NCBI RefSeq assembly: GCF_001457035.1
Contig: NZ_KQ758620.1
Span: 62,001 to 126,000 of the forward strand
DNA length: 64,000 nt
Reading direction: 5' to 3'
Origin: Fictibacillus enclensis
Lineage (GTDB): Bacteria > Bacillota > Bacilli > Bacillales > Fictibacillaceae
How positions within the stretch are numbered: the first letter of the stretch is position 1; every line of letters begins with the position of its first letter. This document shows positions 10,526 to 22,090 of this stretch, piece after piece. A program made the translations under genes and the position numbers. Under the pieces are notes generated by a model, which was not told the DNA's origin, made no database searches, and worked only from the letters and a program-made list of their open reading frames with translations.

Positions 10526-10557
10526 AACCATCCGGGAACCGTTTCCCGGATGGTTTT
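10526..10557. terminator. Terminator between coat-like gene and AAC(3)-like gene
   Basis: ACCATCCGGGAA / TTCCCGGATGGT hairpin followed by T on the plus strand; its end overlaps the stop of the convergent gene at 10557. Confidence 0.8.
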
Positions 10558-11366
10558 TACATAGGAGAGGACATCTGGATGTTTTTCTTCAACCAGTTTT
10601 CTGTGAAGTCAACCAGCTTCTTTTGTTTCATCAGCCGGCAGGTTGCGGAGCCAGCCCCGGCAATTTTTATCTCTTGTCCATAGTTTTCTTCATATTGTCG
10701 GCCAATCTCTTCAAACAACTCTTCCTGATATTCAATTTGTTTATACGTTTTCCATATACGCTGTCCCGATTCAATGACAGGACTTTCTTCTTCCACTTGT
10801 TTCTGTCCAGGTACACGGTACTCGGCCAAGTGCATGGACGTGTTGCTGTCATGTCCGACTCCAATAAGGAGAATAGATCCATCGAGGTCATAAATCCTGG
10901 CAATTGGCGAGGATTCCCCCAGTCCGTTATCCAGGGAGTGATTCCCGGTAATCCATTCTTTATCCTTACCCCATGCTGCGAAGGATACCGTAGGGTGATT
11001 GCTTCTTATGACTCCCGGAAAGGTCCGGAATACTTCGGCGACAGCCCCCATGAAGTAAGTGGGCGAAATTGCCGGGTCGAATGCCGGCATCTCGGAACGT
11101 ATGGTTTCCCACCATTCTTTGGGCACAGGAGGGTTTCCCCATCCTGCAGGGTCCGATAGTTCTGCAGAATGCGTCGGCATGATCAAGTTCCCCTCTTCGG
11201 TCACCACATCCATTAATGCCTGAACAACGGCAACAGCACCGCCGCACACCCAACCCATTTTACTCAACGATGTATGTACAATGACAGTCATTCCCTTTTG
11301 GACACCCAGTTTCTTAAAATCCTGAACCAGCGATGACCGGGTAACCAGTTGCTCTGTATTTATCAC
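10557..11366 (-). CDS. AAC(3)-family N-acetyltransferase (YokD-like)
   Basis: 269 residues. Family features are VIVHTSLSKMGWVCGG near residue 30 (acetyl-CoA loop), LIMPTHSAELSDPAGW, PTYFMGAVAEVFRTFPGVIR, SNHPTVSFAAWG, and ILLIGVGHDSNTSMHLAEY with the catalytic-type His/Glu region. These proteins acetylate aminoglycosides at the 3-amino group or, in YokD/FrbF-like members, other amines, so resistance is not certain. A sigma-A-like promoter (TTGAGA 11415-11410, 17 bases, TATCGT 11392-11387) lies between it and the divergent peroxiredoxin gene. Confidence 0.85.
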   Translation of the reverse strand: MINTEQLVTRSSLVQDFKKLGVQKGMTVIVHTSLSKMGWVCGGAVAVVQALMDVVTEEGNLIMPTHSAELSDPAGWGNPPVPKEWWETIRSEMPAFDPAISPTYFMGAVAEVFRTFPGVIRSNHPTVSFAAWGKDKEWITGNHSLDNGLGESSPIARIYDLDGSILLIGVGHDSNTSMHLAEYRVPGQKQVEEESPVIESGQRIWKTYKQIEYQEELFEEIGRQYEENYGQEIKIAGAGSATCRLMKQKKLVDFTENWLKKNIQMSSPM

Positions 11367-11434
11367 GCTTGAACTCCCCCCTTCATACGATAAGTATAAC
11401 TGGACTATATCTCAAACGGAAAGGAGGGATTTGA

Positions 11435-12076
11435 ATGAGCTTGCCTTTTGACGGAAATCAGCATTATCCCAAGCCATCTGTTGAGCAGTTTACTACCTGC
11501 GCACCTCAGCCCTACTGCGCCGGGCTCGGAGATATCGCTCCCGTGTTCACTGCAGCTTCCTTTCAAGACGGCGAAATCAAAGATGTCCGGCTCGAAGATT
11601 ACCGCGGCCGCTGGGTGGTCCTCTTTTTTTATGGCAGTGATTTCACGTTTGTCTGACCGACAGAATTAGCGGCGGTCGCCGCTTTATATGAAGAATTCAA
11701 GAAACTGAACACCGAGGTGCTCGGCATCAGTACAGACAGTGTCTTTTCCCATAAAGTGTTTAAAGATGTATCTCCCCTGGCCGGCAAGGTGCAATACCCG
11801 CTTGTAAGTGATCGGAATCATATGATCAGCAGGGCCTACCGGGTTCTTGATGTATTCAGCGGGGCATCCGTCCGGGCTACCATTATTGTAGCGCCCGATG
11901 GCTTTATCGCGAGCAAACTCATCTATCCTTCTGAAGTTGGCCGAAATGCATATGAAATCCTGCGGCTCGTTCAAGCCCTCCAATTTGGGGAACAATCACA
12001 ATCAGGCGTTCCAGCCAACTGGCTTCCCGGCATGCCCGGTCTCAACATGGATACCGAGAACATCGGGAGATTCTAG
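11435..12076 (+). CDS. Peroxiredoxin with in-frame UGA at the catalytic cysteine (predicted selenoprotein)
   Basis: The frame from ATG 11435 (ribosome site AAAGGAGGGA) is open for 213 codons to 12076 except for one TGA at 11654-11656 (codon 74). Around it the product reads VVLFFYGSDFTFV-(TGA)-PTELAAVAALYEEF, the peroxidatic-Cys motif FTFVCPTE of AhpC/Prx enzymes with TGA in place of Cys. The following 139 codons are intact: VLGISTDSVFSHKVF, QYPLVSDRNHMISRAYRV, VRATIIVAPDGFIASK, ending VPANWLPGMPG. The usual resolving Cys before 'PANW' is absent; two Cys lie near the start (22 and 28). A SECIS-like hairpin follows the TGA. I infer selenocysteine insertion. The alternative is a single nonsense mutation, giving a broken gene. 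Confidence 0.8.
11657..11683 (+). promoter_or_regulatory. Candidate bacterial SECIS element downstream of UGA
   Basis: Eleven bases after the TGA, AGCGGC (11668-11673) pairs perfectly with GCCGCT (11678-11683) around loop GGTC (11674-11677). The loop begins 17 bases after the TGA and has G in its first two positions. This fits the known bacterial SECIS rule (small apical loop with a G, 16-37 bases after UGA), and the loop resembles the GGUC of E. coli fdhF. Whether the host has selA, selB, selC and selD cannot be seen here. Confidence 0.65.
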
Positions 12077-21915: not shown

Positions 21916-21925
21916 CAATTTGGTT

Positions 21926-22090
21926 TCTTATCCAGAGAGGTTAAGGGAATGGCCCGTTGACACCTCAGCAACCTTCAGCGATTACGAGCTGAAAAGGTGC
22001 TAAGTCCAACAAGTTCGATTGCAGAACTTGAAAGATAAGAAGAATGACATCGAATGTTCAAAGTCTTCTTCTTTAAGAAGGCTTTTTTTA
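21926..22090 (+). promoter_or_regulatory. SAM-I (S-box) riboswitch with terminator
   Basis: Begins TCTTATCCAGAGAGG and continues with the conserved core around GGCCCGTTGACACC, CTCAGCAACC and AAGGTGCTAAGTCC, ending the P1 stem at GATAAGA. The expression platform is AGTCTTCTT / AAGAAGGCT followed by T7 at 22061-22090. SAM binding terminates transcription before yitJ-metH. Confidence 0.95.

Follow-up and report, generated by a model that had tools for sequence, protein, structure and literature searches.

A peroxiredoxin gene of Fictibacillus enclensis with an in-frame UGA at the peroxidatic position, very probably decoded as selenocysteine

The window analyzed here is a stretch of 64,000 nucleotides from Fictibacillus enclensis (NCBI RefSeq assembly GCF_001457035.1, contig NZ_KQ758620.1, positions 62,001 to 126,000 of the forward strand), and positions given without a genome label refer to it. 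The locus of interest comprises the following features:

11421..11427, + strand: ribosome-binding-site-like AAGGAGG upstream of the ATG at 11435, read directly from the sequence
11435..12076, + strand: putative selenocysteine (Sec)-containing peroxiredoxin gene of the AhpC/Prx1 type, 213 residues, stop TAG
11654..11656, + strand: in-frame TGA at residue 74, the peroxidatic Cys position of FTFVxPTE, putatively read as Sec
11668..11683, + strand: bacterial SECIS-type hairpin with a 6-bp stem (AGCGGC/GCCGCT) and a GGUC loop at 11674-11677, from alignment, covariation and folding

An earlier note on this DNA had described a 213-codon frame with one TGA exactly at the peroxidatic Cys, and this was borne out. 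Codon 74 is the sole internal stop in the frame 11435-12073 (plus TAG), 139 codons follow it, and the active-site motif of the encoded protein reads FTFV-U-PTE. The protein belongs to the AhpC-TSA family of Pfam (PF00578; 119.4 bits against a gathering cut-off of 26), and the in-frame UGA thus lies where a conserved protein has its catalytic Cys, as is expected of a selenoprotein gene. Translation table 11 nevertheless halts the frame at codon 74, as it would if a Cys peroxiredoxin had recently acquired the TGA by nonsense mutation and the locus were a pseudogene, although the frame in the window contains no second internal stop. The prediction that standard annotation would call such a gene broken holds as far as table 11 is concerned, but does not hold throughout, as the Cytobacillus spongiae record (NZ_CP089998.1) carries the orthologue as a single CDS spanning the TGA. 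Beside the gene, at 10557-11366 on the minus strand, lies an aminoglycoside 3-N-acetyltransferase-like frame (196.5 bits, short of the 270 that the family cut-off demands).

When the window protein was used as a query, an orthologue was found in 13 of 34 genomes of the same family, at 54-100% identity and with exactly one TGA each. In an even sample of 397 genomes of the order, 53 gave a match at E <1e-60, 52 of them with one TGA and one (G210) with none; this count excludes eight matches at 42-43% identity, which belong to another, stop-free AhpC-like group, as well as a second TGA peroxiredoxin in G134, and it includes five genomes (G221, G230, G268, G289 and G386) counted from the stop number alone. 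(G289 and the genome of locus L073 show the same SelB position and are probably one assembly.) In a phylum-wide sample, 10 of 398 genomes matched at E <=1e-50, again with one TGA each, and eight of these lie outside the order. The carriers of the TGA gene named among the matches listed are Litchfieldia alkalitelluris, Alkalihalobacillus algicola, Bacillus sp. J33 and Bacillus sp. cl95, two of which are apparently also in the order sample, and all four have SelB over the cut-off; further carriers are Cytobacillus spongiae and a Bacillota MAG (L074, partial gene). A separate pattern scan of genome contigs, which used several patterns, one of them with the Cys codon, and therefore under-reports Sec forms, returned at least 80 loci, 71 of which were read, with TGA at the active site in 5 and not in the other 66.

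The alignment of homologues that the earlier note had proposed as a check came out in its favor: among the orthologue loci read, whose identity goes as low as about 53%, the active-site codon is TGA in 63 of 64 and TGT in only one, that of G210. This is the fair count, since the 62 TGA sequences aligned for the analyses below (all 63 but L071, a duplicate of L063) were chosen by a stop at the active-site motif and are all-TGA by construction. Conservation of the same TGA over such distances is hardly compatible with a recent nonsense mutation.

The hairpin that follows the TGA was likewise confirmed. Its letters, AGCGGC-GGTC-GCCGCT, form six Watson-Crick pairs, and the loop begins 17 nt after the TGA. 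Bacterial SECIS elements are described as having a loop of 3-9 nt, an upper stem of 4-16 bp, a G among the first two loop bases, a distance of 16-37 nt from the UGA and an energy of at most -7.5 (PMC13188914). With a 4-nt loop, 6 bp, a loop that starts with GG, a spacing of 17 nt and -10.5 kcal/mol, the hairpin agrees with all five of these published rules, so that the claimed fit to the bacterial SECIS rule stands on loop size, stem length, loop G, spacing and energy alike. The folding energy by itself is modest evidence for a hairpin, at about two standard deviations better than that of shuffled sequences: the 25-nt fold of the hairpin alone has a z of -2.09, and 5 of 200 shuffles fold equally well. 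When 50 nt were folded, another structure had the lowest energy in 5 of 13 family sequences. The consensus fold of the 62 TGA sequences is the same 6-bp hairpin. A search with Rfam at gathering score over the window reported no element at the hairpin and returned only a SAM riboswitch at 21925-22041 on the plus strand (92.9 bits).

More can be learned from how the hairpin varies among relatives. Four of its six stem pairs are invariant; across 59 distinct rows, stem pair 18-27 occurs as A-U in 37, G-C in 14 and G-U in 8, and the outermost pair is broken in 7. The first and last loop bases (pair 21-24) occur as G-C in 49 of these rows and as A-U in the other 10, and all 59 follow the loop pattern N1-GU-N2 with N1 and N2 paired. 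In the four relatives from outside the order, the loop pair is C-G in three and A-U in one, with GU between them in all four. Given this co-variation, it is possible that the first and last loop bases form a seventh pair. None of 500 shuffles, which ignore kinship, reached the observed covariation score or percentage paired, and shifting the structure along the alignment gave lower covariation scores and fewer paired cells. Two of the five shuffle measures were not significant, namely the tally of pairs in which both bases changed (reached in 104 and 75 of 500 shuffles) and the number of pair types (90 and 429 of 500).

The codons that encode the hairpin are also unusually restricted. In the 62 sequences, the Ala-Ala-Val-Ala-Ala codons at +5 to +9 from the UGA have normalised synonymous entropies of 0.27-0.48, as opposed to at least 0.71, with a mean of 0.89, for a comparison set of 21 conserved codons elsewhere that specify Ala, Val, Gly, Pro or Thr (Mann-Whitney p 3.6e-4 versus these 21 codons and 3.4e-4 versus all 55 other conserved codons). 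Conserved Ser codons elsewhere in the gene are low in entropy as well (0.31-0.74), a probable reason being that no single change leads from one Ser codon box to the other. Conserved, co-varying and encoded by codons short of synonymous freedom, the hairpin is by these alignments under selection as RNA. A chance hairpin, which we had considered, was rejected for the conservation, covariation and codon constraint seen across the 62 sequences. Such constraint at the RNA level is also not what a pseudogene would be expected to display.

The genome that contains the window (G000; 4.50 Mb in 10 contigs) encodes, within about 5 kb, the components of the Sec pathway:

G000 C1:1301230-1301322, - strand: tRNA-Sec (Rfam model 56.7 bits, cut-off 47; UCA in the anticodon loop)
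G000 C1:1301924-1303789, + strand: SelB (359.6 bits, cut-off 242.25)
G000 C1:1304826-1304828 (L042:9827-9829), - strand: in-frame TGA near the start of a SelD-like frame, recognized by sequence and by its place beside SelA and SelB
G000 C1:1305233-1306318, + strand: SelA (468.1 bits, cut-off 22.8)

Hence selA, selB, selC and selD, for which the earlier note had suggested searching the rest of the genome, are all present, SelD having been recognized by sequence beside SelA and SelB, and the set of SelA, SelB, SelD and tRNA-Sec that a bacterial selenoprotein gene calls for is complete. Residues 13-636 of the 642 residues of this SelB align with the solved SelB structure 4zu9 (E 2.8e-76). ARAGORN reported no tRNA at the Sec locus, although the Rfam model matched there. 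The TGA of the SelD-like frame falls within STKGG-U-GCKIG, and SelD is, judging from this context, probably a second selenoprotein of the genome. Formate dehydrogenase was considered as a further one, and four FdhA matches lie over the cut-off, with no stop in any matched stretch.

Across the order sample, SelB, whose presence was called from E-values (1e-97 or lower versus 1e-49 or higher), is over the cut-off in 179 of 397 genomes. It accompanies the TGA gene in 51 of 52 genomes, compared with 128 of the 345 others (Fisher p 8e-19, kinship ignored), and the sole TGA genome for which SelB was not called, G230, is split into 480 contigs and has both SelA and tRNA-Sec over their cut-offs. The reverse association fails, since SelB also occurs in these 128 genomes of the order and in 19 of 21 family genomes that lack the gene; in the family table alone (13 of 13 with the gene versus 19 of 21 without it) the difference is not significant (p 0.51). 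With the TGA gene in 52 and SelB in 179 of the 397 sampled genomes of the order, the suggestion that Sec peroxiredoxins are unusual in Bacillaceae needs correction: this one is not very unusual in the order.

Low-level readthrough of UGA is known in bacilli, and UGA 74 could conceivably be decoded by suppression or near-cognate readthrough as some residue other than Sec. We consider this very improbable, because the site is that of the catalytic Cys, because the hairpin follows the bacterial SECIS rules, because SelB, or in the one remaining genome SelA and tRNA-Sec, accompanies every TGA gene of the order sample, and because the TGA is replaced by Cys in a genome without detected SelB (G210).

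Two genomes in which the Sec machinery was not detected behave in a manner that fits, at the level of sequence, the reading of UGA 74 as Sec. In the first, G210, no SelA match was found, tRNA-Sec stayed below the cut-off and the match to the SelB model (5e-55) was as in SelB-less genomes. Its orthologue has TGT (Cys) at the active site, and the loop codon GTC has become ATG, so that the loop reads AATG and the GU is gone, while the stem letters remain. The earlier note had held that close relatives with Cys and no hairpin, along with further decay in this gene, would tell against a selenoprotein; the sole Cys orthologue, however, sits in precisely such a genome without detected machinery, and the claim stands. 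In the second, G021, which belongs to the genus of the window, no SelA match and neither SelB nor tRNA-Sec over the cut-off was found, and what is left of the gene is an open remnant of 126 residues without the segment that would hold the active site and the hairpin; like the gene in the window, it lies near a LacI-type regulator and a frame rich in Tyr, Gly and Pro. Thus, with the machinery undetected, the gene appears either converted to Cys or decayed. That visible decay was found in G021, and there alongside undetected Sec machinery, also counts against the view that the gene in the window is a pseudogene, which with the conserved TGA, the otherwise uninterrupted frame and the constrained hairpin we consider next to negligible in probability. 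Judging from all these sequences, it is very probably not broken but functional, and encodes a selenoprotein of a known kind.

Arguments from absent machinery, including those for G210 and G021, are weakened by a third genome, G029, from the same family. It has no SelA match, neither SelB nor tRNA-Sec over the cut-off and no copy of this peroxiredoxin gene, and it carries at G029:C19:22468-22845 (L188) a PrxQ-type frame that is intact apart from a TGA at its catalytic position. Either the assembly lacks Sec genes that the organism has, or these genes disappeared only recently, leaving the TGA gene behind as a relic. In G030, this peroxiredoxin is absent and contigs C81 and C89 hold two sets of SelB, SelA and tRNA-Sec; with its 160 contigs and 5% contamination, this assembly may be a mixture.

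TGA-bearing peroxiredoxins of other kinds were seen as well. PrxQ/Bcp-type frames of the same family have, like the gene in the window, TGA in place of the peroxidatic Cys; they represent another subfamily with the motif DFTPG-U and an open frame of mostly about 155-165 residues. The TGA is at the catalytic position in all seven such loci read (L173, L192 and L193 from genus g2, and L188-L191 from genus g4), and by stop count a PrxQ-type TGA match is present in 18 of 18 g2 and 8 of 8 g4 genomes. The second AhpC-type TGA peroxiredoxin of G134 (G134:C1:4227065-4227625, L194), a genome that also carries the main Sec gene, shares 43% identity, reads FTFV-U-ATE and has no xCPxxW Cys.

The protein also lacks the usual C-terminal resolving Cys. 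Among the matches listed, 45 of 47 stop-free Cys homologues carry the xCPxxW Cys, and the two that do not are from Chloroflexi (54 of the at least 80 scan loci were checked, and five TGA forms and two with other stops were excluded), whereas it is absent from all 61 Sec proteins. In one of these, L069, the motif search gave no match, and no Cys follows U in the protein; no Cys downstream of U is common to the Sec family, and the Cys form of G210 is also without the resolving Cys. The AlphaFold model, built with 46 sequences, has a mean pLDDT of 87.3, and its best match in the PDB is AhpC (4mab; E 3.3e-22, TM-score 0.94 by target length). The window protein thus shares with typical 2-Cys AhpC/Prx1 enzymes (TIGR03137; Salmonella AhpC, 4ma9 and 4mab) a common fold, the FTFVxPTE site and the AhpC-TSA domain, but its lineage differs from them in having Sec for the peroxidatic Cys and no resolving xCPxxW Cys. 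The genome of the window also has a stop-free AhpC-like frame at G000 C1:970850-971329, to which the Sec enzyme would apparently be an addition.

Because the usual resolving Cys is missing, the selenenic acid formed at U74 would most likely be reduced by an external thiol, either thioredoxin or a low-molecular thiol such as bacillithiol. An N-terminal Cys, which most members possess (at U-46 or U-48 in 52 of 61 Sec proteins, by a census of distance from U), could perhaps assist in this. A stricter version, in which the N-terminal Cys (Cys22 or Cys28 in the window protein) and not an external thiol resolves U74 in a two-residue mechanism, draws on the same census but appears rather unlikely to us: the Cys is missing in 9 of the 61 proteins (in one of these, L169, the open frame starts only 30 residues upstream of U), the model gives residues 1-26 a pLDDT below 50, and the census goes by distance from U only. 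Reduction by an external thiol remains our preferred reading. Gene neighbors in 10 loci inspected by eye, six of them with about 1-1.7 kb per side, included no candidate reductant; L072 and L073 resemble each other in both flanks.

In a tree of 109 proteins (61 Sec and 48 Cys; midpoint root, with the partial L074 and the duplicate L071 left out), the Sec proteins form a clade with 100/100 support, inside which the Cys form of G210 is nested beside L171 (support 90/91). Two changes, one gain of Sec and one return to Cys, would suffice in this sample, whose Cys rows come from the pattern-limited scan, such that nearer Cys relatives may be missing. As for existing family models, the window protein scores 164.8 bits on the PrxU equivalog NF040737 (cut-off 270) and 155 bits on the AhpC equivalog TIGR03137 (cut-off 272), whose resolving Cys it lacks, and hence falls outside both. 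All nine peroxiredoxins scanned, the window's included, reach 140-189 bits on NF040737, which is the top NCBIfam model for eight of them, and stay below its curated cut-off; they are therefore not PrxU, as far as a comparison via the model alone can tell.

Sec peroxiredoxins as such are already published and form an established family (PMC13188914, PMC9312934, PMC1794560), with 91 members in 78 organisms according to PMC5029168, and the lineage in the window adds to them. PrxU of Eubacterium acidaminophilum (Sohling 2001, cited in PMC13188914, PMC9312934 and PMC8533274) is by the title of that paper a Sec peroxiredoxin, as the window protein very probably is. PrxU of Sulfobacillus thermotolerans, reportedly raised in ore-grown cells, is described as a selenocysteine-containing peroxiredoxin (PMC7409299) and is likened to the window gene by this description only. 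For Firmicutes/Bacillales, a 2006 table gives three selenoprotein families and three selenoproteins (PMC1794560). The Bacillales Sec-decoding trait as treated there has SelA, SelB, SelD, tRNA-Sec and the in-frame bacterial SECIS in common with the present case; the passages on that trait do not contain the spread of this gene over 52 of 397 genomes, and the table records no peroxiredoxin that went from Sec to Cys, a change of which G210 looks like a case. Within the open-licence literature searched, no paper naming this lineage in Bacillaceae was found, which is weak evidence of absence.

Taken together, we argue that the gene encodes a one-selenocysteine peroxiredoxin in which UGA 74 is read as Sec by means of SelB and the downstream hairpin, a reading to which we assign a probability of about 0.96. 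The sequences bear directly on the gene, its UGA, the hairpin, the machinery genes, the conservation and the missing resolving Cys; from these we infer translation, peroxidase activity and the nature of the reductant. According to this model, SelB would deliver Sec-tRNA-Sec to UGA 74 by binding the intragenic hairpin just downstream, Sec insertion would yield a 213-residue protein in place of a 73-residue fragment, and the U74 selenolate in the AhpC/Prx1 active site would reduce hydroperoxides. We also think it likely that the gene represents a separate one-Sec AhpC-type lineage in Bacillota, which arose by a single gain among the compared sequences, is present in about one eighth of the sampled genomes of the order, has no resolving Cys and would follow a thiol-dependent cycle unlike that of ordinary AhpC, and in which loss of the machinery would lead either to Cys and a ruined SECIS (G210) or to loss of the active-site segment (G021).

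For annotation, the locus serves as a warning, since a frame of this kind seems broken under the standard code. If the gene is translated as inferred here, Sec use in many Bacillales would be tied to peroxide defence, and the Sec form, the Cys form and the remnant would together provide a natural series for measuring the cost of losing selenocysteine.
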